DNA from: Sanguinoderma infundibulare
Lineage: Eukaryota > Basidiomycota > Agaricomycetes > Polyporales > Polyporaceae
Direction: 5' to 3'
DNA: 64,000 bases
Assembly: GCA_032821775.1 (NCBI GenBank)
Contig: JAVLRN010000002.1
Span: 4,712,001-4,776,000, forward strand
Below are positions 1-34,107 of the stretch, in pieces (the first letter of the stretch is position 1; every line of letters begins with the position of its first letter). The translations under genes and the position numbers were made by a program. The notes beneath the pieces were generated by a model. That model did no database searches. It saw only the letters and a program-made list of their open reading frames with translations, and was not told the DNA's origin.

Positions 1-245
1 CGGGTACGGGTACGGGTACGGGTAACCAGAGTCATAGTGGGGCGGGGGCGGAGCGACCGAGCTGCTCACCCCCTGCAAGACGACGTTCACGTCGCCCGAC
101 GTCGCCCCGCCCGCGAACGTCGCCGTAAACGGGACGTCGGTGCCGCAGACCGCGAACGCCGCCTTGACGCCCTCTGCGTGTCATCAATCCCGTCAGCGCT
201 CGGCCGATACATGCCAACGCCAAAACCAGCTACTCACCCTGGAAG
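1..245 (-). pseudogene. 3' part of a small secreted-protein gene split by the giant transposon
   Basis: On the minus strand the 8-bp duplication CTTCCAGG (245-238) is followed at once by a consensus splice donor (GTGAGT from 237). A 64-bp intron ends at 174, and exon 3 runs from 173 to base 1, open to the window edge. Exon 3 starts with the two bases that complete the codon left by the upstream half at 34242-34100, so both halves join in one phase. The encoded stretch contains AFAVCGTDVPFTATF, an apparent beta-strand-rich region with one cysteine, then a Pro/Tyr-rich tail (YPYPYP). A possible further donor (GTGAGC near 66) means the exon may end earlier. No known function. The split is read directly; the original gene is inferred. 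Confidence 0.75.
238..245. repeat. target site duplication, left copy
   Basis: CCTGGAAG, identical to 34100-34107. It abuts the first base of the left terminal inverted repeat (246). On the minus strand it reads CTTCCAGG, the last eight bases of exon 2 of the interrupted gene. Confidence 0.85.
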
Positions 246-262
246 CACCCCAGGCAGGACCC
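246..262 (+). repeat. left terminal inverted repeat
   Basis: CACCCCAGGCAGGACCC reads inward from the left edge and matches the inward-reading right end at 14 of 17 positions. Confidence 0.8.
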
Positions 263-354
263 TGACGCCTCTCTAAGACTCCTTCCAGTGCCGTGTGAAA
301 CTAGTCAAAGAGACCTCCCACCCAGTTGTTCGCTCTCCCTGTAGCCCAAAAATA

Positions 355-545
355 GTCTGTCCAGAATTGCTTCCTCCGACACTGTCCGCACGACCGTTAG
401 CGCGACCGTCCGCACGACCGTTAGCGCGACCATCTGTTAGCGCGGCCATCCGCACGCCCGAAAAATAGCCTGTCCAGAATTAGTTCCTTGCGTGGGTCCA
501 CAACACTGTCCGCACGACCGTTAGCCCGAGCTTGCGATGTCGATA
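355..545. repeat. left subterminal repeats: CpG-rich 12-bp units in two near-duplicate blocks
   Basis: Two blocks share the segment AATAGYCTGTCCAGAATT (from about 353 and 463) followed by CTGTCCGCACGACCGTTAG. Copies of CCGTCCGCACGA and CCGTTAGCGCGA recur from 383 on. The array starts about 137 bp inside the left end. The same unit occurs in opposite orientation about 143 bp inside the right end, so it may be a transposase-binding region (inference). From 546 to 763 I see only AT-richer sequence without a gene. Confidence 0.7.
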
Positions 546-763
546 TAGCTGTTGTTATTGCGGCGAATTTTCCGATGATGGATGACACACATTCATTGAG
601 GGTTATTTCTCTGAACAACGAAAGCTACAATTAATCAGCTTCAAAAGAGTTTGCATCATTCAGTGCTACAGCAAGACATGAAACATTCGCAAGACATGAA
701 ACATTCGCATGACAATTGACCAAAGTATCACCACATTTGGAGACACAAATAACGACATGAATA

Positions 764-3700
764 CTACGTCTCAGGTACAGATGGATGGCTAGCAGCGGGT
801 GGTAGTTGCATATATGGATGGATGGGTGTCGAGGGTGGCATGGGCGGCGGTGGCGGAGGTTGGCCGAGTTGTGTTCCTGCCGGGGGCTGCACGTGGGCCT
901 GGATAGGCGTTGTGGGATAATATATTAATGGTACGCTCGAGCCTGCTGTGATATTGTGAGGCATGTAGGGAGGAGCGTTCGGAGTGTGCTGTATGATAGG
1001 AGGACCATACATGTATGCTCCTGTGAACCGGCAGTGAGGGACGCCGTTCCACAGGTGATGGGTTCCGTCCTGGTGTCCGCCGTTGAGCGCGGGGTGGTTG
1101 TGTGCCGGGGGAGCTGCGACTTGCAGACCGTAGCCTCCTTCCTGAAAGGCAGGGTTAATGGAAGGCCCAGGCATGCCTGGCTCTTGCACCGTAGCGCTCA
1201 AGCCCAAGCGATCGTCTGCGCGACCGTTCCCGCGATCGTCCGCGCGACCGTCCCCGCGACCGTCCCCGCGATCGTCCGCGCGACCGTCCCCGCGACCGTC
1301 CCCGCGACCGTCCCCGCAACCGTCCGCGCGATCGTCCGCGCTATAGTCCGCGCGGTAGTCTGCGGGGTAGTCTGTGTGGTAGTTCGGGTGGCCCGTAGAT
1401 GCATCCTTGGGACGCGGTCCTCCAGTGGTATCCTGACCAAGTAGTGGTGTTGGGTGTTGGGGCTCAAGGGTGCGGGGCCGCTTGTTAGGTCGGTTGACGC
1501 CAGGATCGCCAGGGTGCTCCTTCAACATCTCCTTCGACGACGAAGCTCCAGTTGATCCCAAGGACGTCTCCAAAAGTTGGATTTTTCTTTTGAAAACGGG
1601 CTTCGGCTTCGGACTGCCAGATGGCGCAGCCTGGTTGTTCCAAGATTGGGGCTGTGGGGTTGGTTCATCGTCCGAGATCTCCATGTACTCCTGGCGTGGT
1701 CTCGACTTCGCCATAACGGGTGAAGTCCGGATGGGAACAGTCAACGGATGGAACAAGGTGTCCCGTTGCTTCTTTTGCTGGTGAGCCCGACCGTCCGAAT
1801 GGGAAACGTCCGAGTCAGAGGAGTAATCGTCCGACGAGTTTTCGGTCTCAGATGTGTCAGCGGTTACGTTCCTCTTCCTCCTGGCCTTCTCCTTCTCCTT
1901 CCCCTTCCCCTTCCCCTTCCCCTTCCCCTTCCCCTTCTCCCTCTCCTTCTCCCTCTCCCTCTCCTTCTCCTTCCCCTTATCCCTCTTCCCTAAGGTAGTG
2001 TGCGCACCGTCAAGACGTTGGGCGCCGCTGCTGTCATTGCCACCGTCAGAATGGTCTTGGTCTTCGTCCGAGTCATAGCCGGCAGGCCGTCGTTTACGTG
2101 CCGGACCCAAGCGGTCCACACGACCATCGATGAACAGGCGACGACCACATAAGTGCGAAGAGGTGTGCTCTGGTGGCGCGCCCAAAACAACAGCCTCAAT
2201 CCCGTCGTCCATCCCTACAACGCAAAGCGCACTGCATTAGTGAAACGCCTGTAAAGGTTCAAGGAAATGCTCGCCTTCCGCGATGGTGTCGTCGAGCCGC
2301 TCAAAGCCTAGGGGATGCTCCGTGTCTAAAATCCCACGGACAAGGAAATTCAAGTCGTTGCGCAGGAGGTTGTGAATGCTCCTCGCGATCCGTCGGTTCG
2401 ATTTATCGCCTTTAGGCGCGGCGATCGGTGGTAAAGGCACAGCTTCCGGCCAGTTGCGCCAGCGGACCTTCCTGCTCACAAATGTGGGCCCGGCCGACTT
2501 CCAGGGGAGCTTCTTGAACTTGTCACCCGGAATTCCCAAACCATCTGGAACGCGCAATGATGGTTAGCTACAAGACGTGTTTGAACATCCTAGGAATATC
2601 ACACATACTCAGCTCCTTGAGGAGGTGTTCGGAACACCACGAAGCTAGTTCCTTCTGATCAAACGCCAGAAGTGTCTTGAGACTCGGAAGATCCTGCTCT
2701 TTGGTCGTTCGCGTCACTTTGGAAGAACCGGCAGCCCGCGCCTCGACCCGCTTGCTAGCGTATCCACACGCGAAGTCATCGGCTATCTGGATTGCGCGCG
2801 AACCCTCAGTGCAACTCGCGTCGAAGGCCTTCTCGACGCGATCCAAGGAGCCATTATGACTATGTAACACGTTGGTTAGGACTTGAAAAGAACGTAGGGG
2901 GATGGGGCGACGGATAGACTTACTAAATGTGTGCCTTAAGATGCGAGAGGACGCCGTCTCGATCTGTGCGACACCGCATCTCGAAAAACTGCAAAAGATG
3001 AGTTGATCGGACAAATCGCAAACGATTAGCTTTGATTACTTACGCCAGTCGCGTCCTTCGTCTCATGCACGGTGGCGAGCCCACCGTCGGAATTGGGATT
3101 ATTGCCAACAAGGGCGACTATGCCACTAAAGCCATACATGGACTCGTACGTATTCAGCTGTACAGCCACTATGCATGAGAAGCCATATACATGCTATCAC
3201 CACCACGACTTACGAGTTCTGACAGCTTGCCCGCGGCTTTCCTGAACGAGCTTTTACGTTCGCCAGCCGTCTGGCTGCCTTGGACCATTTGCAACCTTCG
3301 ATGGTTCCCCAACAACGTCTTGGCATCTTCTTCGCCATACACTTCCAGAAACGCTTGGTAGCATCTCCGACGAAGGTGAACGTCGATGGCATTATCTGAG
3401 GTTTTGTCAATTAACGCGATGTCTCTTTCACATACCGTATTGCGGGAACTTACGCGGTTCAGCTATAAAAGAATGCCATAATTGAGAAAGTGCCCTGTTA
3501 TACAACATACAGGAATACTTACAATCTTGGAGACGTGCTAGTTCTTCCTTTTGATGGTCCTTGAAGTAGGCGCCATACAGGTTCCATAGATTCAACTTGA
3601 CGTGAGTACGCTGAGTGGTCGAGTTCCAGAGGTCGAGAACTTGGGATACATGCAAGCCGGTCTTCGACGCCACATCCTTTGCAAGGTTATGAACTGTGCT

Positions 3701-5978
3701 AAATGCTTGATTGACGGTGGCAATGTTTGCATCCGATATGCGGCCAACAGCCTTCTGGTCATTGTCCTGTCCGTCATTTGAATCAAGGTCCCATGACTGC
3801 GTAGACTCTGAGAACCTCTGCTTGGAGGCATTGCTACGACTGTCAGCGCGACCGTCAGCGTGATCGTCGGCGCGGCCTTCAGCGCGGCCTTCAGCGCGGC
3901 CTTCAGCGCGGCCATCGACGCGACCGTCGGCGAGACCGGCAGCGCCCCCTTCAGCGCGGCCATCGACGCAACCGTCGGTGCGACCGGCAGCGCCCTCTTC
4001 AGCGCGGCCATCGACGCAACCGTCGGCGAGACCGGCAGCGCCCCCTTCAGCGCGGCCATCGACGCAACCGTCGGCGCGACCGGCAGCGCCCTCTTCAGCG
4101 CGACCGGCAGCGTGATCGTCGGCGCGGCCTTCAGCGCGGCCTTCAGCGCGGCCATCGACGCGACCGTCGGCGAGACCGGCAGCGCCCCCTTCAGCGCGGC
4201 CATCGACGCAACCGTCGGCGCGACCGGCAGCGCCCTCTTCAGCGCGACCGGCAGCGTGATCGTCGGCGCGGCCTTCAGCGCGGCCTTCAGCGCGGCCTTC
4301 AGCGCGGCCATCGACGCGACCGTCGGCGAGACCGGCAGCGCCCCCTTCAGCGCGGCCATCGACGCAACCGTCGGCGCGACCGGCAGCGCCCTCTTCAGCG
4401 CGGCCATCGACGCGACCGTCGGCGAGACCGGCAGCGCCCCCTTCAGCGCGGCCATCGACGCAACCGTCGGCGCGACCGGCAGCGCCCTCTTCAGCGCGAC
4501 CGGCAGCGCCCCCTTCAGCGCGACCGGCAGCGCCCCCTTCAGCGCGACCGGCAGCGCCCCCTTCAGCGCGGCCATCGACGCCCCCTTCAGCGCGGCCATC
4601 GACGCCCCCTTCAGCGCGGCCATCGACGCGACCGGCAGCGCCCCCTTCGGCACACCCGCTCTTATAACCTAAGGATGTACAGGCTTGTTAGCCATGGATT
4701 GCCTGCTAAGGCTATGCGCCAAATGAACCTTCACTCCAACCTTCCACTGGAAACTGGAACTCCGAGAAACCCTCCGGTCTACCATTTAAGCTACCGTCCG
4801 CACTACTGTCCGCACTACCGTTCGCGCCACCGTCCGCGCGACCATTCGCGCTGCCGTCCGCGCGACCATTCGCGCTACCATCCGCGCTACCATTCGCGCT
4901 ACCATCCGCGCTACCGTTCGCGCTACCGTTCGCGCTGCCGTTTGCGCTGCCATTTGCGCGACCGTTTGCGCGACCGTTTGCGCGACAGTTTTCGCGATCG
5001 TTCGCGTGACAGTCTGCGAGGCTGATATCTGGACCTAGGTATGTACAGGTTGGTTAGCCAAAAATCTCCCATGAATGCCACTAACAATACGAACCTTCAG
5101 TAAGACTCTCTATCTGAACACCCGAGACACCCTTCGCCTCGCTCTCCGCACTGCCGTGAGCGCGACCATCCTCGCTGACACCTGCCGCATCATCCACGCA
5201 TCTTCAAGTGTGATCGCCCAAGTAAGTCAAACCGCCATTACAAGAGAAGTTCAAACAACTTACCCGTCACCACGGAGATGGGACAATTCAGCAGGCAGCC
5301 ACGCCAACGGCGGAAGTGTAACGTCCCGGCTAATGCCCACGTGACTGAGGTCCACGCCTCGACCACCATCCATGTCCCCGCTCTCCTTTGCAGCACCTCC
5401 ATCAGAGGAACGGTGGCCAATTACACCGGTGTTTAGACCAAGGACGCTTTCAGGAGTCACAGTGGGGCTTTCTACATGCGCAGAGGCAGGCGGCAGACCC
5501 ATCCCAGGAATACGTAGGGGCAACGACGGTGCTGTGCGTTCCCAACATCAAACACAATGTGTAGCAGACAAGACAAAAAACGAGACTCACAACGCGTCAT
5601 CCTGATTGAGCTGCTACCAACCTGCCGTCCAACCATGGCTCCCACGGGAGGGATGGTAGACAGAGGAGTGGTTGCTTGTGTTCGAGTCGCCAGATCCTCA
5701 GAGCTGGCCAGTGGGGAGGTCGCACTTGATCTTGCCGTAGACGCTCCACCACATCCACCGTCACAGGACCCTACAGCATCTACAGAACTCGACGTCACAC
5801 CAAGAAGACAATTACTCCAAAAATAAATTGCACCTTCTACTTTGACAGCGGACGCGTTAGCCTTGCGCCTCCGCCCGCCCCGCTGGAGTGGGGGTGGAAT
5901 CTGGATGCCAGGGACAAGGGTTGGCGCAGGCGGAACATTCGTGGAGTCAGGTGCCTTGGAACGCCCCCTCAAGTGCAT
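764..5978 (-). CDS. large repeat-rich accessory protein of the transposon (1,518 aa model)
   Basis: Twelve exons close in phase: 5978-5591, 5531-5264, 5201-5095, 5034-4729, 4668-3523, 3462-3454, 3395-3214, 3157-3044, 2988-2924, 2859-2609, 2544-2275, 2214-764. The intron before the last exon starts with GC instead of GT. The tiny exon 3462-3454 could instead extend to 3436 with a shorter intron. The first in-frame ATG is at 5978; an upstream exon cannot be excluded. From memory, the middle part (for example NQAFSTVHNLAKDV, and a later FFEMRCRTDRDGVLSHLKAH) resembles an uncharacterised agaricomycete family often found near large transposons. Exons 3-5 and the last exon contain 12-bp repeats coding DGRA/EGGA-type runs. 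The last exon also has a Lys/Gly and Lys/Glu/Arg run and a Pro-rich tail, suggesting a disordered nuclear protein. No enzyme motif is visible. Confidence 0.65.
1208..1372. repeat. 12-bp minisatellite inside the last exon of the accessory gene
   Basis: Tandem CGCGACCGTCCC / CGCGATCGTCCG units. On the minus strand they code GDGRGDGRADDR-type peptide. The unit is the same as in the subterminal arrays. Confidence 0.85.
1880..1980. repeat. pyrimidine-rich hexanucleotide repeat
   Basis: TTCCCC and TCTCCC hexamers in tandem, within the last exon of the accessory gene. The minus strand codes a Lys/Gly then Lys/Glu/Arg run. Confidence 0.85.
3841..4640. repeat. 800-bp higher-order minisatellite within a coding exon
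   Basis: The array is built of 12-bp modules such as TTCAGCGCGGCC, ATCGACGCGACC, GTCGGCGAGACC and GGCAGCGCCCCC, ordered in repeating 24-, 36- and 48-bp blocks. All three minus frames and one plus frame stay open through it, because every block is a multiple of three. Flanking splice sites and the downstream protein select the frame coding GRAEGGAAGLADGRVD. Confidence 0.85.
4795..5030. repeat. 12-bp minisatellite in exon 4 of the accessory gene
   Basis: Units of the type CGCGACCATTCG / CGCTACCGTTCG. The minus strand codes ANGRANGSADGS-type peptide. The introns on both sides of this exon are also similar to each other. Confidence 0.8.
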
Positions 5979-7112: not shown

Positions 7113-10100
7113 TCATTCCGCCCCTGCGGTCCGAACAACATCCACGTAACCTTCTTTGTCATACGACGGGAAGCTCTCCAACGAGTCGCCACTGTCACGC
7201 TGACGACCAGACAAACAGTGCTTCATCGAGGCCCACAAGCTGAGGCAGTGTTCCTTCATAGAAAGACGGGTGAAGGCCTGTCGGTTGGCATAGGAGTCGA
7301 CCCCCTCAGAATAATCCGGTCGGTCCTCAAAGTGGCGGCCTACCTGCTGCTCCCACCAGTGCTCACGTCGCTGATGGTGCTTGACGATACGACACATTTC
7401 GTCGTGAAGCAATTTGCACTTCTTCGCGCTGGTGAATGCCCGAGCGCGAGCCTCGCACCACTCAACGCGCAAGGCTGCAAAGAATGTTATTAATGCACAA
7501 GCGCAGCCGCGACAAGCTAAATGACGTACCGTCGTTCAAGTCCCCATTGGCACGAATATCCAGCAGCTTAGATCGATCCAGGACCCCAGTTCGGCAAAAG
7601 CGCCAGATCCACGACACGTCAAGTTCGCTGGCACTCCCATCAGCCTTTGGAATGCCACGCACGTCGCTGTCCCTCAACTCTTCGAGGTATACGATGGTCT
7701 TGCCGAGAGCAGCGGCGAGCTTTCTAAGGCCAGCGTAGGCGCCACGGTAACGAGCTACGTCCATCCCCATTTTTGCCTGGACAATGTCGGCAACCAGGTT
7801 GGTACGCCTCGCCTTCCCTTCCACGTTGGGATACCTATAGGCACATGCGCGGATGTACTCGGTGACCTGAATATGATCGCGAAGATAAGCGAGAGCATCA
7901 AAGGCCTGGGCCTCCCGCATGCGCCATTCGAATTCGAGGAGATTGTTGGGGAGGTGTGATTCGGAAAAAACGACTGAGGGGAAAAATAGTGGCAAATCCT
8001 GGGAGGCCGAGATAGCATTGAAGGCGGGTTTCGTTCGCAGTGACGCGACGATGGGCATGAGGTGCTGCACAAGGTCGTGCCACGCGTTAATTCGGTGTCG
8101 CAGGCGGCCCTGATCCTCCACGAGCCTCGCCCAATGGAGGTCGACAGACTGGGATTCTGACCTGGCCAAAGCAGCACGCAGCCGTCGTCTAGGTACGATG
8201 GGATTGAGAAACGACTTAACTGCTATAGCTAAGAATAACTTACTGCTCGTCTTCGAGATCTAGTCCCATAGCGATGATCTCGCTGGCTGTCTCCCCACTG
8301 GGAGACCCAAACGTAGCCTCGCCGCAATGGATCGCCTTCAGATCCCGCTGGTATAGCTCAAGACGAACGGTCTTCTGGGTTAAGTCTGCAGTAACGCTCG
8401 TGAGACCGGGCCATGGTGCCTAAGACAAGTATACGCACGACTACGTGTTGTCTCAAAGGGGTTGGTAGCCGTCTTGCCCTCCGTCTCCCACGTTGCTATC
8501 ATTTCCCGCCACGACTCCGCATGGCGGGAAGGAACGCACTCGGTAAGAACATGGAAAACCTTGTCGTATAACCGACGCTGGGAGACGGCGTGTTCGGCGT
8601 CCATAAGAAGAGTCATGGCTGCATGCGGTTCAGGTCACAACTACAGCATCAAATTTGGACTAAACGAAACGTACGCAGCATGGTGACCTTGGTCCAGTTC
8701 CAACATCTAAGGGTATGTTCAAGGACATCCTCGCCCCAGCCTCCGTCAATCGGGATGGTCGGGGTTCCCCATACAACGTCCATGGCGTTGCGCTGGCGAG
8801 AGAAGTCGGCGACGCGAGACGGTTCTTGACAGTTACCATCCGGGTCTTCACAGTCGTATACGAGATCAGGAAGAAGCACGCTCGAAGGAAATGCGGAGTC
8901 GCTGTAGGGTGGCGGAATAGGTGAACGATAACAAAGATATGTAGTCGACACGATCGGCTGACATACCTCCCAGTCTCTACTGCGCAAGCGCACACCTCGT
9001 GGTGGGGACATGCGATGGTCATCAGGCCTGAGAAAGCGCGTCGGTAAGCGTGATCGCGCATGACGTGATTTTGCAAACTCCTAACCTCCGTCCCTCCCAG
9101 ATGGAAGATTAGGGCCTCGGTTACCGTGTTCCCCATCGAAGAGTTTGCGCTTCGGGGCATTGGAGTCCGGAGTCCGAGAGAAATGGCGCAGCCGGCTGTA
9201 TCGCGATATATCAGGGTTGGACTATCACGGTGAACTCAAGACTAACCTGTGCTTGGGAGATACCTCGCTATGATCACGGGGTGCGTCTTCGCGGCCTTCC
9301 AGAGTTGCAGCAACACCGTCGGGGTCCTTCTGTGTCCCAGACCTCTTCAACCCCTTCAAGAGTTGCCATTGTCTCGTCATGGTAAGAAAAGCAGTCAGTT
9401 GGTTCTACGCAGGTGTGTGAGTATAGTAATGTTGAAAAAGAAGAAGGTAATGACGCACCATCGAAGCGTTAACACCGGTACTGTGGGTGACGAGGAGCAA
9501 GGAGCGGTAGTAGCCCAAGATAGATATGCTCGACAGAGCGGACAGTGCATGGAAGTGTTCAAGGAGGCGAAACATCGCCACAGTGCAGGGAGCCGTGGCG
9601 GTTGCGGGGAACCAGCGCTGGCGGAGCAGCTGAAGAGACGGTGAAGCAGCGCCCTCACAGCTACAGAACATAACCATGACTTCGCGAATGCCCGACAGGT
9701 CGAGCACGACGATGGGACCAGAAAGGGAGACATGGGGGTGAGGACACTTCCCGTCAAGGTCATGTCCCAACTGGAAACGCAGGCCGAGCAGACTGAGCTC
9801 CTCGGTCTGAAACCGGTTCCCCGTCCACCGCTGAAAGTTAAATACAGTCATTTGGCATGTCATCAACACGTTCTGAATCCGTGAACACGAACCTGAACGC
9901 GATGAAGTGGGTGACGCGTATGGATCGCCAAGCAGCACCCCAAGCAATATAGTGCCCGATCGAAGCAGTCATCGCATCGGAGGCCAACACCGCCAGGGAG
10001 AACCTCACGACAGCCACCGCACTTGTTACTGACGAAGTGGCCTCGCCCATCCAGTCGTATGAGCTCAGCGACATAGTTGTCGTTGTGCTCTCGCCATTGT

Positions 10101-16892: not shown

Positions 16893-17828
16893 CGCAGGGA
16901 GAGCCCCCAACCGGTAAGGTCTGCCCCACATTGACCGTCGGTCAGGGTCCGAAGGGAGAACAAGATGGAGATGCAGGGACGGAAGAGAACACGACGTACC
17001 GTCAGGGTCTGACCATCATAGGTTGCAGATTGCCCCATCGTGCGGCACCTCCTGCTCCCCGTCAATCGTGCGTATCTGGGCGTACAATGGGTTGAGGGGT
17101 CCAGGGGCGCGGTGGTCGAATACGAGTATGATGAAACTCACCTGGTTGATGCTCTGCAGACTGGGACTCAACCCTCCATGCACGCAAAACACCCTTCCAT
17201 CGACGATGGCACCCGGCGCAAGGTAGTAGAAGACCTCACAACACCACCTCCAAACGTTGCTGCTCCCTTACTTTCTTTGACACTCGTCGAAGAAGCCATA
17301 CACCTGGGTGATTTGCCTTGACTCGTGGTTTCCGCGGACGAGGGTCATGCGTTCTGGATAGCGGACTTTGAGGGCAAGCAGGAGGAGGAACGTCTGGACG
17401 CTGTATCGACAAAGTGGCCTGGGGTGCGAAGCTCAGCACAAAGACGCGTCCGACGCGTTATGCACGTACCCATGAACAGGTAATTCGTCTCTGGGCAAGG
17501 CCCGCCGACCTTGAAGAGCTCCATCATGTCCCAGAACTGCCCGTATATGTCCCCACACATCTCGAACCCTGTGTTACTTGGCGCGTTCGTCCGAGCACAC
17601 GACTAACTAGAGATGTGCTCACTGTTACTGGGGAGTCGACCACCTGCACATTGGCCTCCTCGATGAGGATCTCGCGGGTCTTGAGACGGAGCCGCTTGAC
17701 TTGTTCTTCGGAGATGGGCTCGCACCGGAGGAGCTGCTCGATTTGTCTGCCGGGGCACGTCAAGGACTGAGCGGAACGGGTATCGGCTTGCAGACGACGA
17801 TGACGAACTTGTCAAGGTCACTCGGCAT
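16893..17828 (-). pseudogene. PP4/PP2A-type protein phosphatase catalytic subunit, degraded copy
   Basis: From ATG 17828 the exons read [17 protein letters not shown], then [32 protein letters not shown] (GDxHG motif, here GDIYG) and [13 protein letters not shown]. Next should come GDFVDRGYYSV: the sequence gives HFVD and then resumes out of frame at [17 protein letters not shown], so a few bases with the catalytic Asp-Arg-Gly are deleted. Further pieces follow in order: [44 protein letters not shown] and TGWGLSLR. Introns are retained, so it was copied from DNA. The lost DRG block and frameshifts make it nonfunctional. Confidence 0.8.
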
Positions 17829-20138: not shown

Positions 20139-21538
20139 CTACTCACCCCAGTCTGTGCGAGTGCGATAGTCCAGCTGGTAAGCGGCACCCCAAGCAAAGC
20201 GAAGATAGTCCCATCCCCATCGCCCGGCCTCCGCCCCCTCCAAGCTGACCTCCCAGTTGCCGTTCCTCCGCGTCCAGTCATATTCCAGCAACTCTGACGA
20301 CAGAAAGTCTTCAGTGTCTTCTGCTTCCAGGGGCAGGTAGCCCCACTGCTTTGCGGCATCTAGGACCATGTCGTCATTGACCACGACCTCAGCGTCGCCA
20401 CCCAGCTCTTCAGAGAGGTCGCCACGAACACTCTTCACAGCCACCTCGATGTCCTCCCCCTCCTGTGGGTGAAACAAGGTGACTGCGATGGTGGTTAGCT
20501 TCCCCCCCCCCTCTACCTGACCAGTCCATGAGGAGAACGCCGTCTTCGCAGCTGTAGCGGAGTAGGGAGGCCACACAACGTACACCGATGCGTGAATGTG
20601 TATGGTGGGTATGTTCTGAAAGATCTTGACCTGCGCTGCCCACTCTGGTTTTTGCCAGAATCGTAAGCACCGGTCTACGATCTGTGAAGCCCATAAGTCT
20701 GGCCCATCACTCTTGTTCATGAAAAAAAGATATACCTGGCCCTCCTTTCCATATGTGAGGTCTTGGAAGTAGCGGTATTCCTTGGACAACCACTTCAGAG
20801 TCACGTCCTCACAAAAAAAAGTCCAGAGCTCACCTTGTCATCGCAGTATGGCCAAAGTCGCAGGAGTGCCAGTGAGGGTGGCAAATAGGGGGCAATGGGA
20901 CCGTAGCAGCAAAGGGGTTGAACGTCTCTGTATCCGACGTACGCGAGGGTGAGTGTCCTTAGCCTTGAGAAGGAGGACCATGCTTCTTTGTTTGCATCCC
21001 AGTTGAACTGGATAGCCATCTCATGTGAGAGAACGAGGTTGAGGTCCTGAACACAGTGGGCGCGACTGGTCCTAACAGTACGTGTCTGCAGGGGATGAGA
21101 AATCAGCAGGGATGCAAACAGATGTATGCACGCACATTAAGCAGAGACTCTAAAGCACCCAAGGAAAAGATAATGGGACGCTTGTACAAGTCTGCCTCGA
21201 ATTGCTCGTATGCTCCTTCAAAGCTGGCTGCCCACTGAGCCTTCTTCCGCCAGGCCTGGAGCTGCTCTTCATCCATTGGAAACTCGCCAGAGGGAAAGTC
21301 GCCCAGTCCTGGGGGACGGCGGCGGCACTTTTTACAGTCTTGGTCTACGTCTGCTTTGACCTAAACAGCATGTTAGAATACACCAGTTCTGAGATGCGTC
21401 GATAGCAATACTCGCAATAACCCATATCTTGACCCATAACTCGTATGGTAGCCTCTCCTTAGCACGTCGAGGGCGAGCGACCTGGAAACGGCCGGGCTGT
21501 CCTCGGAGCGCGTAGGCCTTTCCTCGTCGAGCAGCCAT
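20139..21538 (-). pseudogene. hypothetical agaricomycete protein (F-box-like start), broken at an A8/T8 run
   Basis: Exons 21538-21422, 21360-21136 and 21085-20139 splice in phase. The start MAARRGKAYAL is followed by ERLPYELWVKIW, like the first helix of an F-box (weak). Then come a CKKCRRRPPG motif and long plain sequence (WDYLRFAWGAAYQLDYR near the end). At 20813-20820 a run of eight A on the plus strand shifts the frame: after YCDDKVSSGLFF the frame stops, and one extra base would restore CEDVTLKWLSKEYR. The only alternative, a 26-bp intron (20833-20808), is too short. This is either a real mutation or a homopolymer reading error. Function unknown. Confidence 0.55.
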
Positions 21539-24522: not shown

Positions 24523-25437
24523 ATGGACCCTGGCCCTACGTTCTCGCCTGGCGAGAAAGTCGTTATACAAGCAGCAGACCGCACCCTCGTCTTCACCGTC
24601 GACAGACCTTGCGTGCCGTTCACCCAAACGGTCGTGCTCATCGCCCGCTCTCCGCAGCTGGGTCCCCAGCCCGTCCTCGTCAAGATATACGATCCCCGAT
24701 TCTTGAACGAGAGGCTCCCCTTCCCACCGTACCTACCCTTACGCCCATGGAGCATGGAGGCGGAGAGAGCAGGGGCTGCCCTAGGGGAAGACAGGTTCGA
24801 AGAGGAATGGGAGGCCCGCTACGACCCGGTGCCGACCGATGCTGAAGGTCTCGCTACGCGCGCCGCGGTCTGGGAGAAGCATTACCAGAGGCTCTCCAGC
24901 TCCGCGTTCCGTACGGAGCACACAGCATACGAACGGTTGGCCCACCTCCAGGGCTCCGCGATCCCACTGCTGCTCCTCGTCGGCACCTACCTTCCACCGG
25001 ACGAGCGAGTCATCCACTTGCCCGCGATAGTCTTCGAGTTCATCCCGGACGCCATCGAGGCGTGCGACGTAAACCCCACCACGCTGGATCCCGAGGTGTG
25101 CACCACGCTTCTGCGCGCCGTTGACAGCTTCCCGTCATGCGGCGTATTCCACGCGGACCTCAGATACGACCACATCCTGTTCACTCCTAGGAACCGACCT
25201 ACACGTGGAGTCATCATAGACTTCGGTGCCGCAGGAATCAAGGAGGAGGATCACGACGAAGAATCATGGCAGGTAGACGTGGAGTTCTACGACGACAGTG
25301 GCTTTGTGCGTAAACTGTTGCAGGCGAAGGGGGTCCTGGTGGAAGGTGTAGAGATCTGCGAGGACAGTAGCAGTAGCGAGGACAGTAGCAGTAGCGAGGA
25401 CAGTAGCATGGACAGTAAGTGGTGTGTAGTAGCGTAG
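24523..25437 (+). CDS. protein kinase-like (possibly pseudokinase) protein, 304 aa, single exon
   Basis: The start ATG (CCCATGGAC context) gives MDPGPTFSPGEKVV. VLVKIYDPRF offers the ATP-site lysine. AYERLAHLQGSAIP and IVFEFIPDA fit the hinge region of the small kinase-like family common in agaricomycetes. The catalytic loop is FHADLRYDHILF and the metal-binding motif is IIDFGAAG. The catalytic Asp is kept, but the usual loop Asn (family NILF) is replaced by His, so activity is doubtful. The C-terminus has a 15-bp repeat coding EDSSS (25371-25410). It lies between captured fragments and the coiled-coil gene, transcribed opposite to the transposase. Role in the element unknown. Confidence 0.6.
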   Translation: MDPGPTFSPGEKVVIQAADRTLVFTVDRPCVPFTQTVVLIARSPQLGPQPVLVKIYDPRFLNERLPFPPYLPLRPWSMEAERAGAALGEDRFEEEWEARYDPVPTDAEGLATRAAVWEKHYQRLSSSAFRTEHTAYERLAHLQGSAIPLLLLVGTYLPPDERVIHLPAIVFEFIPDAIEACDVNPTTLDPEVCTTLLRAVDSFPSCGVFHADLRYDHILFTPRNRPTRGVIIDFGAAGIKEEDHDEESWQVDVEFYDDSGFVRKLLQAKGVLVEGVEICEDSSSSEDSSSSEDSSMDSKWCVVA

Positions 25438-26113: not shown

Positions 26114-27953
26114 ATGGCCGATAACACCCCCGCCAATGCTGCTCCTCAGGCCCCGAAAATCATGCCCTTCGCGCAGTGCGACCTCACTCCGCTGGGCATC
26201 GGAGACATGGTTGTACACCTGCGCACCCAGCCCTTGCTTCACGACCTCCCCCAAGGTCCCCTCGTGGCTATGGCCATCGCCCTCATTACCCACGGCGGGT
26301 CCTCCGATAAGGAGGATACTGTCCCCCACGGACGTCTCTATCCCGCCTTTTACGCCGCCCACTCGTCACAGTCGACCACGACCTGGCGGAGCGGCATGCG
26401 TGATGATTACATGAGACTAATCATGGACCTAGTAAGTCATTCGAGCATAAATTCGTTGATCTTTTCGCTCACTTCATCTGCAGCTTACTTGGCACGACCG
26501 GGTCTCTGGTGGATCTTCTTTCTTCATCTCGACTCAAGCGACCCGCCGTCCCGGCTCGCGTCCTCTTGTCTCGGAGGCCAAAATGGACGTTTTCCTCCCC
26601 GTCGTCCTTCGTAAAGAACAGCCACGTATCGCCAGCCACCTCGCTCGCATGGTTCAGTGCTTCGCGCACGAGATCGCCGTCCCTACGATGATTCGCATGG
26701 ACAAGGCAAAGTCGACGTACACCAACAGGTTACCGACGATACCCGAGCCACCTTCGCGCGTCGATTCCCAGCTCGGACTGATACCTTACTCGACGACAAA
26801 CTGGTTGACCTTCTATGGTCGGGACGATGCTGTGCTCGAACGACTCATCTCTGAGCAGACAGGCGGCACGCAGCTGACCGCGGCCGTTGTCCCTGCCCCC
26901 ATCCCTCCTCCGCCAACGCCTTCTGCTACGTTCCCTCCTCCTGTCTCGGTCCCGCCCGTTGTCCATTCCCCCATCCCTCCTCTGTCAGCCCCTTCCGCTA
27001 CGCTCTCTCCTTCTGTTCAGTCGAGCTCGGCATCCCTCCACGGAAAGGGGAAGCGGCGCGAGATAGAAGACAGGCCTTGGACCATAGACGATCTCAGACG
27101 CTGCGCGGAGCTGCTGTCCGATACCGGTGCGTTCGGCCAGGACATTCGACCTCAGATCTGTGAGCAACTGGCGAACAAGTTGCCGGATATATTCGCCATT
27201 ATCTCCCAACTCGAGAACCGTGTCGAAGACCTTGAGAAGATCAAGCACACCCAGCTCGATGAGCTTGAAATACTCCGTGACTCATTGCGGAACACGTTGG
27301 ATGGTTCGTTTGTTTTATCGCGCTACTTGCCTCTTTTGAGCGTTATTAACCACAGTATTTGTCTAGAGCACCATGTGAAGATGGAGCGTGTCAAACACAG
27401 CCGCACGGCAGCCCCCTCGCACTCTGGTACGTTCGGCACGCCGGATAAAGTGAAGCGCTCAACAGGTTCGCCGACGTCGACAGCTACGAGTTCGGTTTCG
27501 TCCGTCTCTTCTGTCACCGAGTCCAGTTGGCATCCCGTCCGTCACCCCAGTCACCAGTCGCGCGGTACTACTCCCATGCAGATGTCCTCGCCTCCTGCCA
27601 CCCACGCTTCTACCGCCGTCTCGCGCCGTTCTACTCCCATGCGATTGGTTTCGCCTCCTGTCACCCCCGCTTCTACTGCCCACAGCGGCCGTCGCCACCA
27701 GGCAGAGCCTGTCTACCGCTCAACTTCAGATGATGAGGAGTCTGAGATATTTGGTCCGCACACCCGTAACGTCATCGACAATTTCTTTCTGTCCCCGGTG
27801 ACGCACAGCACGCTCAACTACATCTGGCGCAAGTATCCGAGGAATGACTGGGCGCAAACAGTGCGCTCCTCCATCACGACCCCTTCAGAGGATGTGACAC
27901 AGCATCTCATCGACGCGATGCTGCGGGACTGTGAGGAGGCTGAACATTCGTGA
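26114..27953 (+). CDS. hypothetical coiled-coil protein of the transposon (574 aa)
   Basis: Exons 26114-26431, 26484-27303 and 27367-27953 join in phase. The start (ACCATGGCC) gives MADNTPANAAPQ. Exon 1 looks globular (GDMVVHLRTQPLLHDLPQG). A Pro-rich linker (PAPIPPPPTPSATFPPPV) precedes RPWTIDDLRRCAELLSD and a coiled coil (AIISQLENRVEDLEKIKHTQ). The tail is Ser/Thr-rich with two similar repeats (PMQMSSPPATHASTA and PMRLVSPPVTPASTA) and ends with a folded-looking NFFLSPVTHSTLNYIWRKYP. Function unknown; it may be a multimerising accessory factor (inference). Confidence 0.55.
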
Positions 27954-28209
27954 GGTAAGATGTGACGTCCTTCCCCTTCCAAAACGGGAGTCCATCGCGG
28001 AGGCTACCAATGGTGCGTCCTGTAACGGGCAGGTCGCGTCGTTAGTATGATGGCTCCATTCGCGCATTCCGCTCAAGTACGCCTCCCCAAAAACCGATAA
28101 CGTTCGCGTTATCGGATGTATCATAGGTCTGTCGCTCGCTGTCTGTCGCCGTGTACTCGCTGTTCTTCTTGTCTCGCTAGTTGCTACGTTCGCTGTCTCC
28201 CTTCTCGTA

Positions 28210-28500
28210 TCACTCGTCTTCCATAACTTCCATAACTCTGTCGTCGCTACGTCGCTGTGACACGTGTCTTCCCTGCTGTCCCCCGCTCAAAATGTACTTC
28301 TCCTGAATATTATCCAACCCCCGATTTTGATCGGACATTGCACTGCGACGGCGGGGTCCATCTTCCATAACTACCGTAACTCTGTCATCGCTACGTCGCT
28401 GTGAAGCGTGTCTTCCCTGCTGTCCCCCGCTCAAAATGTACTTCCCCTGAATATTATCCAACCCCCGATTTTGATCGGACATTGCACTACGACGGCCGGG
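28210..28500. repeat. tandem duplication, 144-bp period, two copies
   Basis: Two nearly identical copies, for example CCTGAATATTATCCAACCCC at about 28,302 and again 144 bp later. The minus strand stays open through both (MSDQNRGLDNIQ repeated), because the period is a multiple of three. The rest of 27,954-29,083 holds nothing recognised. Confidence 0.8.
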
Positions 28501-29083
28501 TCATCTAATGTGTCTCAACGACACCACCGTGGGCTGGTACGAAAGGCTCGACCTCTATGCAGACTAACGTCGTACATCGTTTTCGTCTGTGAGTTTTAGC
28601 TTGAGGACCGGGGCCGTTACGGTGCATTCCGCCACGCGGTCAGCAATAGACTCCGCGTCACTCGGTGTCCATTCAATTGGCAGTCTTTGACGCTTCTAAC
28701 ATACATTGAACGCTTGGTTGCCTGCATTTTGCTTGCATTCAATACAGAGCCTTATGACGGCCTAAGCGGCACATGCTGCTAAGGCTAGCCTGCACAAGGA
28801 GGGCTGTCCTCGACTGCGTCAAAAAGTATACGGTGAAAATTGTAGAGGGTGGATTGACCTCGTTTTGTGCGTCTTCTGTAAAATGTCACGTTCATCTCCA
28901 AATGAAGATTGGGGTTCTCCGCGCTCGACACATAGACGATCACAAGGGCACCGCGGTAGCGAGGAAAGCAATGAAACGGGGATGACAGGGCATACATCTC
29001 TTGCCTGACGGTAAAGTCGTCCGACACAACGCATACGGTCGACAGGACCAAGACTTTGTCAATACATTTCACCTATCTTCAAG

Positions 29084-32000
29084 CTAGGACGCAACATCAG
29101 ACATGGTATATACAAGTGCTGCCATTCTTCGACGGAACTCGGCAATGTCCTGTACCGAAAGCAAGACCGACGTATAACCTCGCAATATCGCTGCGGTGCA
29201 GGCGAGAACCCACACACCACAGTCCCAAGAATTTTTCTGCAAGGGCTCAATCTTCACAGAACGTCAACGGCATGTCAGGGCCTGATGAAATTGCGAGCAA
29301 GGAACTCACCACGAGAGGATACGTCTTCCAGTCGCCATCCAGGGAAGGTGGCGCATATCCGTAGGCTACTGCAAGGCGATGCAAACGGTGGATTAGAACA
29401 AAGATATCCTGGAACTTGGTAGTCAGAGATAGTGCATGCGCGGAGGTTGTTTCCACTATACCTTTGCATTGGACTCGAAGCTCTCCTTATCGCCGAAGCT
29501 GTCGAAGTAAGCGATGCGTCGCTTCCTCCAATATACTACAGCTAGAGTCCAATGGGACCGCTCGCAACTGTGGATCGGAAAGACCCAGATGTCCTTCTCC
29601 CAAAATCGTGTACTCTTCCAGCAGACCCGCCATACACCTTGGTCATCGCCAACTCGATGTTGCACTACTGTCCAAGAAGGAAATAAGGCGGGAGCGCCGC
29701 GCGTGGCAGCCGTGCCGAGGTGTCGAAGGAGAATCTGAGATCCTTCATTAATACAATCGTCATTCAGCCAGGCGGCCGGCTGGTAGAGCCGCTTCAGAGA
29801 GGGGAGATCAAAGACCAGACGGCGATGTTCGACGGTCGCCGAAACCGTACAAGTTTCGCGCGGAAACTGTGGCATATGGGAAGGGGCAGGAGGCAGGCAG
29901 ATCTCAGTGTTATTGCGGACAGTGAACTGTACCCACTCAAAACATAAGAATCGCAGCGACGATGGTATTGGATCGTTACGTACCGGGTTGCGGTCCGACA
30001 GTAACAGTTCCTTCTCGATCAGCGGCATGCCAGAGGGCGTTGATGGGCCGAATGTCGGCTCCGTGTGGCGATCACCGATGTCCTGCCCGTGCTCGTTGCA
30101 GATAACCTCGAGGGTGTCGCGGACAAGGCAGGTCTCCTCGTCGAGCTCCTCCATTCCAGCATCATTAGATACGTCACCCTCCCACTCGTCTTGGAAGCCA
30201 AGATGCACCCAATGAAGAGGTACGGGCTGTGCGGCGCCGGACAGTTTCTCCGCCAGGCGAGTGGCTTCGGAGATCTGTGACTTGAACCGAAGATCCGAGA
30301 CGAGTGTTGTGCGCCACTGGAACTGGAGCAAGAGAAGTTTCTCTTTCTCTTGTTGCAGGAGAAACAGAATTTCCGCATCTGACGGGTGATAATTCGGATG
30401 TGGAACCGGGCGTGAAAGGGAATTGTACTTACTTTTGGGGAGTCGTATGGCCAGCTCGACAGCGGCTAACTCGAGCCCGTACCATCGGCACATGTTATCA
30501 GCTTCTGATCCCAATCTGCGACGCTCTTCTAGGCACCGCTCCCGCGCCAGGACCGCCCGAATTCCGCTGCGTACGTCAGCATCCTTAAGCCACCGCGGAA
30601 GAGTTGGGGAGACTCTTGTGACCCAGACGTCGGCGAGAAGACTCAAATCCTCCCGTAACTCATTGAGCTTGGTCGGTAAGTGGGCAGGTAGAGGGAACTC
30701 CCAGGAAGGATGGTATTGCCCAGCCAAGGCGTCACAATAGCTGTTGAACTTCCGAATAGCAGTTGTCAGCGCCGGGGTACGCTTGGTGATGGCCTTTCGC
30801 GTCTGCTGATGAAGCTTGGTTCCTGAAAACATGTCCGTGTGAGTAACACATTATGCGCAGGAACCGAATGACCCGCCTAAAGGCTGATCACGACCCCCTG
30901 CAGCGCGGTCCAGTTTGTCCCATTCGAAGAACGTTCCAATCGCTCGTTTGCGGATGTTGATCTTCAGATCTCGTGCAAGCAACAGCGTGCGAACGAACTC
31001 CAGCGGTAGTCCCTGAATCTCCGGAAAGGCGTTGGTGACGTTCAGTGACGTGTACAGGCTGTCGACCTTGTTGATGGTATCTTTGTGGGCCTGACGCAAA
31101 CTGTTGAGGAAGTTATGCGCCTCGGGGTTTTCCACGTCCTGGGAGATGGCCTTATGAACGTGTTGGATGTACTCGTCAATTGTATTGAGCTCGGTTTGCA
31201 ACGTGAGTACTGCGTCAAGCTCCTGCTTGATCTTTGCAGGTGCATCTATAGAAGAGCGAGCCTGGTGAGAAAAATTCATTAAGACGAGATTAGACACGTG
31301 CGGTTTCTAACGGACAGCTGTGCCCTCCGTTGTTGCGACCATTGTTGTCGAAGTTCGACAACAGGGGTCTGGACTCCAGCCAGCTCTTGATTGGCTGCTT
31401 GATTACGGGCTTCAACTCCGTTCTTCAGCCGGCCTCGAATCCACCCTCCGAGGTGATCGCGGGCAGCGATGTTGATGACGTCCATGTGTCGGTCGATCAG
31501 CCAAATACGGCGCGAGCGCTGTGGTCGTTCCGTAAGGTAAGTTGTGTTAGAGATAGTCCGAAAACATACCGCAGATGAGCGTGTCACGCCGATCAATTTA
31601 CGCAACTTCGACCAAATCCTTTCTGCACCCTCTCCCTCTGTCAAACCAAGCCCTTTCCGCAATCGTGGATTGTAGACCAATTGGCACGCCCACTGGTGTC
31701 CGTAGGCATGCATCACTGAGGTGGCGAAGAGTAATCTGTCCATGATAGAGGCCGGTAGAATATCAAACTGAATATTGTGTTAGAAAGGCCGGGACGAATA
31801 AGACATAGTCCTGGTTCATTACGCACCTGACGCAGACTGCGATCCATCACGCAACCGATGTCGTAGTACACCACAACTGTTGCTTTGCGTGGGAGGCGGG
31901 AAAAGAGTTCATCAACTAGCGCTATGCCATAGTACTGCCGCTCGCCAGGGGTATCGACGTTCGCCAAGAATAACACGACGTCATGACGACACACAAGGGC

Positions 32001-33876
32001 CATGAGGCCAGTGTCGTCGAACTTTGGCCCGTGGGTCTTCTCCTTTTTCTCATCCGCGGCCTCATACGATTTCTCACACTCGTCAATCGATGTGTCGGGA
32101 ACTTCACTTGTGTGTGGCCGAGGGGGCTTCTTGCGTGCGGCAGTGACGCGAGCCTCCATCATATCGATCTTTTCTTTGGATAAGAAGTATTTCGGCTCAT
32201 AGAACCACGGGCTTTCGCCTGCAGCGACGTTGTGACGTTGGCTGAATGTCGCATCCAGGGCAACGTGGATGTCTCCACCATCACTGGAAAATTTCGTAAG
32301 TACAATACGAAGATCCGTCGAGGTGAACGCACTGTTCGAAGTCGCGCCCAAATCGTGTCCCTCCAAAGCACGCCGGACATAGCTTTTGCAGGTAGTGGGT
32401 ACAGGTTTCCCCGGCGGATTCATCGTCATGGAGGCCTTCTGGTGAGTGCTCACGCGGACGGTCGCTCGAATGGTCGCGTGGATGGTCGCGTGGATGGTCG
32501 CGCGGATGGTCGCTCGAACGGTCGCGCAGATGGTCGCTCGAACGGTCGCGCGGATGGTCGCGCGGATGGTCGCTCGAACGGTCGCGCGGATGGTCGCGCG
32601 GATGGTCGCTCGAATGGTCGCGCAGACGGTAATGGTTGCTGCCCGGGTGCTCTGCAGAAGGATTCTGTTGTTAGAATTCGAATCATGATGGGTATAATGC
32701 AAAACATACCGAGGGACGAAGAGTTCTTCGTGGCGTTTGTCTGAGAGTTCTGCCGCTCGGTGTTGACGAGAGGGATGCACTCATCTACCGCCTTCTCGAG
32801 CATAGCCTCCGGGCGCCGACGGAGGACGTCGTACCATTGGATAGCATGACCCAACCCTCGACGAAAGGGGTCTTGTACAGGCTCGTCCTTGAGTTGAAAA
32901 TCAGTAAAACATAACGGAGCGCAGAACTGACGAAATCATACCTTGTCGTTTAGGATGGGGAATCCACAGCGACTGTACATCGTCTTCAGCGCGCCGGATA
33001 GGGCCCCCACAGCATCTGCAGACCGCTCAAAGAGGGCGAAGTAGAAGTCTAGCAAGTCTATCGATACCGCAAGACGAGGTTGAAGAGGTGACGTGGGGAA
33101 AAGACCGTTGCGCACGAGAGTTTGCGCAATAGTAGCGCACTCGCAAGTTTCGAATGCGATTGTAATCAAGTCTGTTGAAATGAGTTCATGTTGTTACTGC
33201 TTAGAATGAGCAATGACGTACGGTCGACATGAAGACATTGGATATTCAGTTCCTTGGGGGTGCACACTGGCAGTCTTTTGCAGTGGCACATGTTCGTCTT
33301 AACTTCAAGAGGGCGACCCAACCGACCTTGACTTCGCTGCATGTAGCCAAGATAGTCGTGTACCAGAGTGGGGATCAAGGCGAGCCAGTTATTGTATAGG
33401 CGATGAGCGGTATCGTCCGGAAGTACTCTCCGAGAACGCGGTTGTGGGTTTTCTGTCCCTGAACTTGGCTCGTGACCATGCAGGTCGTCGCTGGGATGTG
33501 GAGTGCATCCCTCTTCAGGCGGAGGGCTGCTAACATCCACTACAGGCTGGGTGTCTATGTCGGAAGGCTGGGTGTCTATGTCGGAGCGCTGGTGACGTTT
33601 GCGAATCTCATTTATTTCGCTGAGCAGCTGTTCCGCTTCGAGAGCAAGCCCGGGCCGAATGATCACTTCAGAGTCTTTGCGCCAAGGCCGACGTCTTTTT
33701 GGGCTCTCGAAATGGTGTCCCACCACCTGATGTGAGCGTTTAGAAGGCCGTCGCGGAGGCGTAGCTGGTGGTGGTAACACGGGCGACCTGGAATCCATGT
33801 TGGACCACGAAGGCAAGGCAGGGAGGACCGAAGGATGATGGATCCGGAGAACGTGCAAGCGCCTGACGCGGGCCAT
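29084..33876 (-). CDS. Kyakuja-like KDZ transposase fused to a Ulp1-type cysteine protease (1,388 aa)
   Basis: Thirteen exons close in phase: 33876-33222, 33171-32942, 32887-32710, 32651-32333, 32283-31827, 31767-31570, 31518-31312, 31261-30865, 30822-30433, 30378-29984, 29935-29462, 29408-29310, 29251-29084. Order: a basic N-terminus; a CxC1 zinc module (NMCHCKRLPVC, later TCEC, then CPACFGG at C446 and C449); a minisatellite-coded DHPRDRSS linker (about 363-425); the catalytic core with Asp in HVALDATFSQRH (D471), Asp in VVVYYDIGC (D602) and Glu in LTEGEGAERIWS (E659 or E662); RRIWLIDRHMDVIN; a long helical region; and a C48 protease domain with WLNDDCIN, His in SHWTLAVV (H1270), Asp in YFDSFG (D1287) and Cys in NSWDCGVWVL (C1344). 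All catalytic residues are present with no stop or frameshift, so it may be active. It presumably cuts and joins the element ends and may process SUMO-like modifiers. Confidence 0.85.
32455..32635. repeat. 12-bp minisatellite within the transposase gene
   Basis: Tandem GGTCGCGCGGAT / GGTCGCTCGAAC units. The minus strand codes the DHSSDHPRDHPRDRSS linker between the CxC1 module and the CPACFGG/DDE core. The same unit occurs in the subterminal arrays and in the accessory gene. Confidence 0.85.
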
Positions 33877-33921
33877 CGAACTGTTTGTGTCTTTAATCAA
33901 AACCAAATATCCTATTCAACT

Positions 33922-33956
33922 GACGGTCGCGCGGACGGTCGTGCGGACGGTTCTGC
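33922..33956. repeat. right subterminal 12-bp repeats
   Basis: GACGGTCGCGCG, GACGGTCGTGCG and GACGGTTCTGCG in tandem. In reverse complement they equal the CCGTCCGCACGACCG units of the left subterminal array, at a similar distance (about 143 bp) from the element end. Confidence 0.75.
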
Positions 33957-34082
33957 GACCAGAAGAAATCCAAACCTATATTAGGAGAAGCTATTTATAG
34001 ACTACATGTGAGAAGTTCGCGCGAGGGGGGTCTCTCAGAGTCAATTCCCATGTGCAACCAATACGTCTAAAGGAGGGGACTG

Positions 34083-34099
34083 GGGACCTGCCTTAGGTG
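34083..34099 (-). repeat. right terminal inverted repeat
   Basis: Read inward on the minus strand: CACCTAAGGCAGGTCCC, 14/17 identical to the left end. Confidence 0.8.
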
Positions 34100-34107
34100 C
34101 CTGGAAG
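34100..34107. repeat. target site duplication, right copy
   Basis: CCTGGAAG, identical to 238-245, directly outside the right inverted repeat. Confidence 0.85.

Follow-up and report, generated by a model that had tools for sequence, protein, structure and literature searches.

Does this stretch of fungal DNA hold one giant transposon that moves as a unit, which proteins would move it, and what does it carry? We analysed a 64,000-nt window (the whole stretch under study) from Sanguinoderma infundibulare (GCA_032821775.1, JAVLRN010000002.1, positions 4,712,001-4,776,000, forward strand), for which a first-pass annotation had proposed a complete element with exact ends inside a host gene.

Ends, copies and the interrupted gene

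End analysis and the comparison with four other fully read, collinear copies gave the following features.

246-34099, no strand: transposon, 33,854 bp, 5'-CACC...GGTG-3'
238-245, no strand: left target-site duplication, CCTGGAAG
34100-34107, no strand: right target-site duplication, CCTGGAAG
246-262, plus: left terminal inverted repeat, 17 bp, 14 matching
34083-34099, minus: right terminal inverted repeat
34100-34425, minus: 5' exons of the interrupted secreted-protein gene (gene model and homologue alignment); the remainder lies on 1-245 and past the left edge of the window

The proposal of a complete transposon was borne out, including its 8-bp duplication and the match of the terminal repeats CACCCCAGGCAGGACCC and CACCTAAGGCAGGTCCC at 14 of 17 bases. 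The span first given, 246-34107, has base-exact ends but includes one duplication; the element itself is 246-34099. A search of the same genome for copies with both ends, which the annotation had recommended, found seven (C2, C3, C4, C6, C10, C12, C18); their flanks differ, their ends agree with no displaced ends, and each has a duplication of its own, exactly 8 bp in six of them and 7 bp in C12. Both lengths are those of the KDZ superfamily (7-8 bp according to PMC12730594), and 8 bp is the length in Zisupton or Dileera. All five fully read copies are collinear, at 33.3-34.6 kb; this count covers the five copies other than C4 and C6, which span about 141 and 88 kb. Outside the minisatellite, divergence is 0.32-0.45% among four copies and 1.16-1.26% to the fifth. 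Copy C3 carries an additional nested element of 23.6 kb, of whose family C4 and C6 contain short relatives.

When the flanks are joined the host gene is open, and a gene finder places a four-exon model across the join that reads VFQ|EGVKAAF in frame, as had been predicted for the restored gene. The homologues that could be aligned (11 out of 18 found) all run through the junction, which is the opposite of what the annotation had named as evidence against it. Empty sites, which it had proposed to seek in sister strains and related species, were found as three paralogues in the same genome, uninterrupted at the junction, each with a single CCTGGAAG and 94, 85 and 84% identical across all 172 bases. 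The restored model carries a long tail of low complexity and, compared with homologues of 132-134 aa, is about 13 residues short. We consider it highly probable that a 33,854-bp KDZ-class transposon, with copies elsewhere, has inserted at an exon end of a secreted-protein gene, and that it is mobile as one unit by means of its own predicted CxC1-KDZ-Ulp1 transposase, which would cut and paste it with an 8-bp staggered cut.

Mirror-image arrays near both tips

A CpG-dense 12-bp unit is repeated near both ends of the element.

380-470, plus: array closest to the left end, with an exact core match 159 bp from that tip
1206-1364, plus: second left array
3600-5180, plus: long left arrays, the main cause of length differences between copies
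32450-32634, minus: right array, inverted, within the predicted transposase reading frame
33920-33962, minus: inverted array closest to the right end, with an exact core match 160 bp from that tip

The left 6 kb hold 54 units on the plus strand and none on the minus strand, and the right 2 kb hold none on the plus and 15 on the minus strand; this one-way orientation is seen in 5/5 fully read copies. We think these mirror-image arrays are likely to be binding sites for the element's own proteins. The transposase would then bind the terminal repeats together with the arrays, which start some 135-150 bp in from each tip. Another reading, in which the arrays are ordinary GC-rich minisatellites expanded by slippage and irrelevant to transposition, is a real possibility, if a somewhat doubtful one. 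Unit number does vary between copies and one array falls within the predicted transposase frame; with six arrays, one-way orientation alone would arise by chance about 1 time in 32; moreover, no unit is present 159 bp from the left ends at C67 and C4:4212412, and at the right ends of C4 and C6 the unit found at 160 bp has two mismatches. Slippage does not account well, however, for a unit that is inverted between the ends and whose exact cores, in all five full copies, lie 159 bp from one tip and 160 bp from the other, nor for its 74 matches in the element, when block-shuffled versions of the element give 3-8 and 30 kb of flanking sequence gives 10.

This genome also holds a distantly related 23-kb family with inverted subterminal repeats of its own. 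In the retrieved parts of the literature we found no KDZ element described together with subterminal repeats, and Zisupton is mentioned together with the term subterminal.

Transposase, dioxygenase and cargo

The protein-coding features of the element are as follows.

29083-33798, minus: transposase gene, predicted model of 12 exons in which the final two borders are approximate, with CxC1 zinc cluster, KDZ and Ulp1-type C48 peptidase domains
12657-13067, minus: exon with a Tet_JBP dioxygenase core that includes HxD and the downstream H (profile search, alignment to relatives)
24523-25437, plus: kinase-like ORF, 304 aa (structure prediction, homologues)
17268-17828, minus: shortened copy of a phosphatase catalytic subunit gene; Metallophos match below the cut-off
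26114-27953, plus: predicted 576-aa gene, no family found (search with ORF 26583-27953); open in 5/5 copies
7113-8783, minus: predicted gene, 474 aa, no family found
20139-21276, minus: predicted gene, 309 aa, no family found
764-2212, minus: low-complexity ORF, 482 aa, no family found; open in 5/5 copies

Transposase, protease and dioxygenase had all been claimed, and Pfam finds domains for all three. The KDZ transposase domain (PF18758) scores 93.2 bits in one exon and 63 in another (cut-off 26.6), CxC1 30.1 bits (cut-off 26.9) and C48 47.3 bits (cut-off 20.7). Automatic prediction handled the transposase poorly, and its exon borders were placed by hand; across the ten exons checked (down to 29462) the frame is stop-free in three of the five fully read copies, while C12 has two stops and C3 has three, its nested element interrupting the frame as well. 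Among the matches listed the closest is from Ganoderma leucocontextum (71% identity over 99%), and KDZ and C48 occur together in all of the best nine of at least 120 matches listed. Since the transposase is predicted to be a CxC1-KDZ-Ulp1 fusion, we class the element as a giant KDZ transposon. Starship giant elements are marked by a tyrosine recombinase captain; with a KDZ transposase and 8-bp duplications there is no reason to class this element among them.

The Tet_JBP match (36.6 bits) is barely above its cut-off of 34.9 and is confined to the profile's second half (positions 74-161 out of 164), and a search of the exon against PDB sequences gave nothing meaningful and no dioxygenase. At the iron-site positions, judged by eye against dioxygenase families c and d, the exon has HRD and then THFN, both unchanged in the relative C2:3252061; the more diverged C13:639903 has HWD and THFI. 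Differences among the five copies are nearly all CpG transitions, and dN/dS was therefore computed against diverged relatives: for this exon it is 0.26 against C2:3252061 and 0.38-0.63 with C13:639903, the relative L054 being left out.

The four young copies have 188 CpG transitions among 221 private changes, or 459 of 536 when C3 is added. Presumably the host methylates the element at CpG and the copies would decay by C-to-T change. The predicted Tet_JBP-type dioxygenase would oxidise methylated cytosine, by which CpG-dense binding sites would stay usable and silencing would be escaped; enzymes of the TET/JBP type encoded by transposons are thought to aid escape from methylation, according to excerpts of PMC12730594. 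Our counts bear on this proposal, for CpG decay in carriers of the gene is much like that in a family without it. Two Tet_JBP-carrying families have 108/119 (five copies) and 107/129 (six copies) CpG transitions, and the family without the gene has 47/51 private changes of this kind in 3.5-kb pieces of six copies, 'without' meaning no match nearby (one copy, C4:946921, has a match about 20 kb away). Shielding of the element by its dioxygenase is unsupported: carriers are not clearly less CpG-mutated than the family without the gene when CpG and other C-to-T changes are compared (Fisher p = 0.34). The per-site CpG excess is 25- and 20-fold in the Tet_JBP families, 37-fold without the gene and about 16-fold in the giant element, and we do not read the lower values as protection. 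Shielding of the 12-bp arrays is likewise unsupported, as their CpG sites decay as elsewhere (8 changes observed against 10.5 expected, p = 0.53). The CpG-dense subterminal arrays do give a concrete place where demethylation could matter. One could imagine an epigenetic switch in which they are methylation-sensitive landing sites cleared by the element's own divergent TET-type dioxygenase, with the Ulp1 domain and the kinase-like protein as further regulators, and in which inverted subterminal arrays are a general design of giant KDZ elements, the last point drawing on the 23-kb family; as a whole we hold this scheme to be rather unlikely.

It is improbable that the element is a dioxygenase-carrying Kyakuja, the only TET+ group reported for Polyporales in the excerpts of PMC12730594. 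It resembles TET+ Kyakuja in having a KDZ domain, a Tet_JBP gene, 5'-CA..TG-3' tips (here CACC...GGTG) and an Agaricomycete host. By description, however, Kyakuja has 7-bp duplications and no terminal inverted repeats (PMC12730594, in part), whereas here 6/7 copies have 8 bp and 1/7 has 7 bp, imperfect 17-bp inverted repeats match at 14 bases, and the dioxygenase is divergent. The KDZ region is only 25% identical to those of the two dioxygenase-carrying families in the same genome, and the dioxygenase 24-31% in short local matches. One of these two families does fit Kyakuja, with 7-bp duplications in 4/4 further copies and CA..TG tips.

The annotation had also listed captured genes. The phosphatase fragment, which we take to be of PP2A/PP4 type, supports that description best; the kinase-like gene may have been carried for a long time instead of being captured recently, as it is also present in diverged relatives in the genome, and homologues of it occur in other mushroom-forming fungi. 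Both would be passengers of the giant element. The kinase-like protein falls below the Pfam cut-off, and of three homologues only one passes, with APH alone. Its AlphaFold model has a mean pLDDT of 68.6 (alignment of four sequences), and the PDB matches listed are kinases or kinase relatives (best E 2.9e-6); as TM-scores are only 0.31-0.53, 'kinase-like' stays a prediction. Against diverged relatives its dN/dS is 0.43-0.65 (one relative over the first 245 aa only), and in C4 the ORF is split by about 6.5 kb. Nested insertions are frequent in large elements and the 23.6-kb insertion in C3 and its short relatives in C4 and C6 are examples, but it is very improbable that the element is a small transposon filled up with unrelated nested insertions, 34 kb that are not one mobile unit, because the 33-34 kb are shared in unchanged order by five copies, each at its own site with its own flanks and each with the kinase-like gene, the dioxygenase and the transposase. 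If there are nested pieces in the shared interior, they were fixed before the present expansion.

Comparison with known elements

The subterminal arrays recall En/Spm (CACTA) elements, which have repeated motifs within both ends that are bound by an element-coded protein, a GC-rich part of the motif having been suggested to be methylation-sensitive (excerpts of PMC2613891). These belong to another superfamily, and the soybean element described there duplicates 3 bases; we claim no sequence relation.

Among the matches listed, the nearest to the transposase are Agaricomycete CxC1-KDZ-Ulp1 proteins from G. leucocontextum (P0022 and P0023, 71 and 69% identity) and Trametes pubescens (P0025, 60%), over 99-100% of the searched part. 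The sequences compared are single predicted proteins, and our literature search found no text that combines KDZ, Ulp1 and transposase.

The first-pass annotation had called an element of this size and content unusual, which is partly true. Giant KDZ elements of algae reach 30.3 kb in Ectocarpus, and an active one of 31.7 kb is cited for Chlamydomonas (both in excerpts of PMC12477816); fungal KDZ elements with a TET/JBP gene have also been reported, and Zisupton is named as the only KDZ group for which a complete transposon was well described before 2025 (PMC12730594, in part). What is gained here is a giant KDZ element from a mushroom-forming fungus with five full sequences, empty sites and ends defined to the base. 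With the algal giants, as far as the excerpts of PMC12477816 describe them, it shares superfamily, size class, nested insertions and accessory genes; it differs from them in its length of 33.9 kb and its fungal host.

Element ends, copies and the interrupted gene

In this genome we characterized a KDZ-class DNA transposon of 33,854 bp, lying between two copies of CCTGGAAG (window 238-245 and 34100-34107) and bearing terminal inverted repeats that match at 14 of 17 bases. The window covers C2:4712001-4776000. Named proteins close to those encoded here belong to polypores, and we regard the host as a mushroom-forming fungus akin to the polypores. The first-pass annotation had proposed a complete transposon with exact ends, an 8-bp duplication and a restored host gene, and this structure was borne out. 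It had also suggested looking for further copies sharing both ends; searching the genome with each end separately (48.9 Mb, 87 contigs) returned 10 and 7 matches, and seven copies, named here by contig, have both.

Target-site duplications and lengths of the two-ended copies
C2 (window 246-34099): CCTGGAAG, exact 8 bp; 33,854 bp
C3: GTATATTG, exact 8 bp; spans 56,858 bp, 33,283 bp without a nested element
C4: TCCCATTG, exact 8 bp; about 141 kb end to end
C6: CGGACGTC, exact 8 bp; about 88 kb end to end
C10: GATGAGCA, exact 8 bp; 34,238 bp
C12: CCGCCGC, 7 bp only; 33,644 bp
C18: ATACCGTC, exact 8 bp; 34,592 bp

The span of the C3 copy is due to a 23,567-bp element nested within it. The C4 and C6 copies are known from their ends and gene matches; both contain dioxygenase, kinase-like and transposase matches, the kinase-like gene in C4 being interrupted by about 6.5 kb. 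Two extra left ends, on C67 and at C4:4212412, have identical 25 flanking bases and therefore look like a single site assembled twice; a genome-wide right-end search found no partner for either. With a minisatellite left out, C2, C10, C12 and C18 diverge from one another by 0.32-0.45%, and C3 from these four by 1.16-1.26%. At window 28217-28502 two 142-nt repeats stand in tandem (94% alike), and near this place the C12 copy is missing 144 bp, as though one repeat unit had dropped out.

When the insert is removed, a four-exon secreted-protein gene model spans the insertion site, with protein matches of 51-53% in Trametes, Ganoderma and Dichomitus. Eleven of the 18 homologues found were aligned, and all 11 continue across the proposed junction, passing from ISKGRWEQ into GIKAAF; relative to them the restored model is missing about 13 residues upstream and carries a long tail of low complexity. 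On C2, three paralogues (94, 85 and 84%) are uninterrupted, each with a single CCTGGAAG, and are empty sites of the paralogous, not the allelic, type. The duplication comprises the final eight bases of the host-gene exon, so that the GTGAGT donor has been displaced to the far side of 34 kb; we infer that the insertion silences the gene. The gene belongs to a paralogue cluster at C2:4654049-4790055, and other partial matches occur on C4, C6, C12 and C15.

Genes of the element

Predicted genes (window coordinates)
33798 to about 29083, minus: transposase gene with CxC1, KDZ and Ulp1 (C48) domains
24523-25437, plus: kinase-like protein whose K, H (followed by D in most) and DFG positions are common to its homologues
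17268-17828, minus: shortened copy of a phosphatase catalytic subunit, present in all seven two-ended copies
12657-13067, minus: Tet_JBP dioxygenase exon, its match slightly above the cut-off

The element belongs to the KDZ superfamily. Its predicted transposase contains DATF, YYDIG and GEGAER stretches and its peptidase domain HW, D and DCG, which we take to be the catalytic positions. A search gave 299 relatives; the first nine of 120 listed all combine KDZ with C48, and among the matches listed a Ganoderma leucocontextum protein is 71% identical. Over 108 alignable positions the KDZ region is 60-81% identical to 18 relatives of our own selection from the 120, as against 25-26% when compared with three further KDZ families that the genome contains. 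Across ten exons (3,822 nt; the C3 nested element, also within this gene, excluded) the frame is free of stops in three copies (C2, C10, C18); C12 has two and C3 three. The KDZ transposase probably moves the element, and the mechanism past that step is inferred.

In local matches the predicted dioxygenase is 24-31% identical to the Tet_JBP proteins that two of the genome's other KDZ families carry; the dN/dS of its exon, measured against a diverged relative at C2:3252061, is 0.26. Homologues of the kinase-like protein occur in Ganoderma leucocontextum (55%), Cubamyces lactineus (52%) and Leucoagaricus (31%), and its K, H and DFG positions recur in diverged copies within the genome. Diverged relatives of the kinase-like gene (71-76% DNA identity) lie at C2:3252061-3263708, together with one of the dioxygenase, and at C4:3501162-3523670; these are probably older related elements. 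The phosphatase copy is found at five other places (70-93% DNA identity); outside these and the seven two-ended copies its top protein match is C12:1940528 (68%), possibly the resident gene. For several further predicted genes no known family was found.

Subterminal arrays and CpG decay

Mirror-image, CpG-dense arrays of the 12-bp unit GACCGTCCGCGC
380-5180, plus: left arrays
32450-33962, minus: right arrays

Allowing up to two mismatches, we counted 54 plus and no minus units in the left 6 kb, no plus and 15 minus units in the right 2 kb, and five matches between; block-shuffled controls gave 3-8 and 30 kb of flank gave 10. The other four fully read copies (C3, C10, C12, C18) repeat this one-way pattern (31-86 left, 11-16 right). 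In all five, core matches stand at 135, 147, 159 (exact) and 171 bp inside the left tip; at the right tip the distances are 148, 160 (exact) and 172 bp. C3 has additional exact units at its left end. The C6 left end has the core at 135, 147 and 159 (exact) bp, the C67 and C4:4212412 left ends at 135 and 147 with none at 159, and the C4 and C6 right ends at 148 and, with two mismatches, at 160. In the five shorter arrays 274 of 667 sites are CpG, compared with 4,929 of 32,154 overall.

Private changes in C2, C10, C12 and C18 comprise 188 CpG transitions, 30 other C-to-T changes and three of any other kind (rates of 0.95% at CpG sites, 0.058% at other C or G and 0.0023% for the rest). This spectrum and these rates suggest that the four copies were inserted recently and that their decay is predominantly of the methylation type. 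Mostly CpG decay was seen in all four KDZ families sampled, with a bias about equally strong in families with a Tet_JBP gene and in one without. In Ganoderma sinense, a species with measured CpG methylation, the same bias has been described (PMC4457147); three other basidiomycetes are reported to show a CpG signature (PMC4352252).

Comparison with other KDZ elements and known systems

Genome-wide there are 29 Tet_JBP and 87 KDZ matches, and KDZ families with a Tet_JBP gene nearby, at least three in number, coexist with others without. The KDZ element nested in C3 (C3:3928503-3952069; 23.6 kb) has its own Tet_JBP gene and belongs to a distantly related family with seven copies by end search. 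Both ends of a relative of this family (85-90%), paired by nearness, bound five stretches of 4-5 kb, which are likely non-autonomous derivatives; two of them lie within the C4 and C6 copies, one in each.

Short relatives of the nested family
C13:607282-611798
C4:1161071-1165624
C6:781666-786110
C2:401420-405519
C14:484443-489526

Kyakuja is described with 7-bp duplications, CA..TG tips and no terminal inverted repeats (PMC12730594). The nested family resembles that description: its tips are CA..TG, no inverted repeat is evident, and the duplications measure 7 bp in all four further copies checked. The 34-kb element, in contrast, has inverted repeats and 8-bp duplications in six of seven copies, and does not fit the same description; it may be a Zisupton, a Dileera or a member of a fourth line. 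The nested family's own subterminal repeats, also inverted, are different and longer (0.8-2.6 kb from the tips, 68-93% alike). In the literature searched, no paper mentions KDZ together with subterminal repeats and two mention Zisupton with subterminal sequence; for En/Spm, the element's own TNPA protein is described as binding such repeats (PMC2613891). Both giant KDZ elements and KDZ elements that carry a dioxygenase are known already. This element unites the two and, in a combination that is new, also has duplications of 8 bp, inverted repeats, a dioxygenase that is divergent, and CpG-dense subterminal arrays in mirror image.
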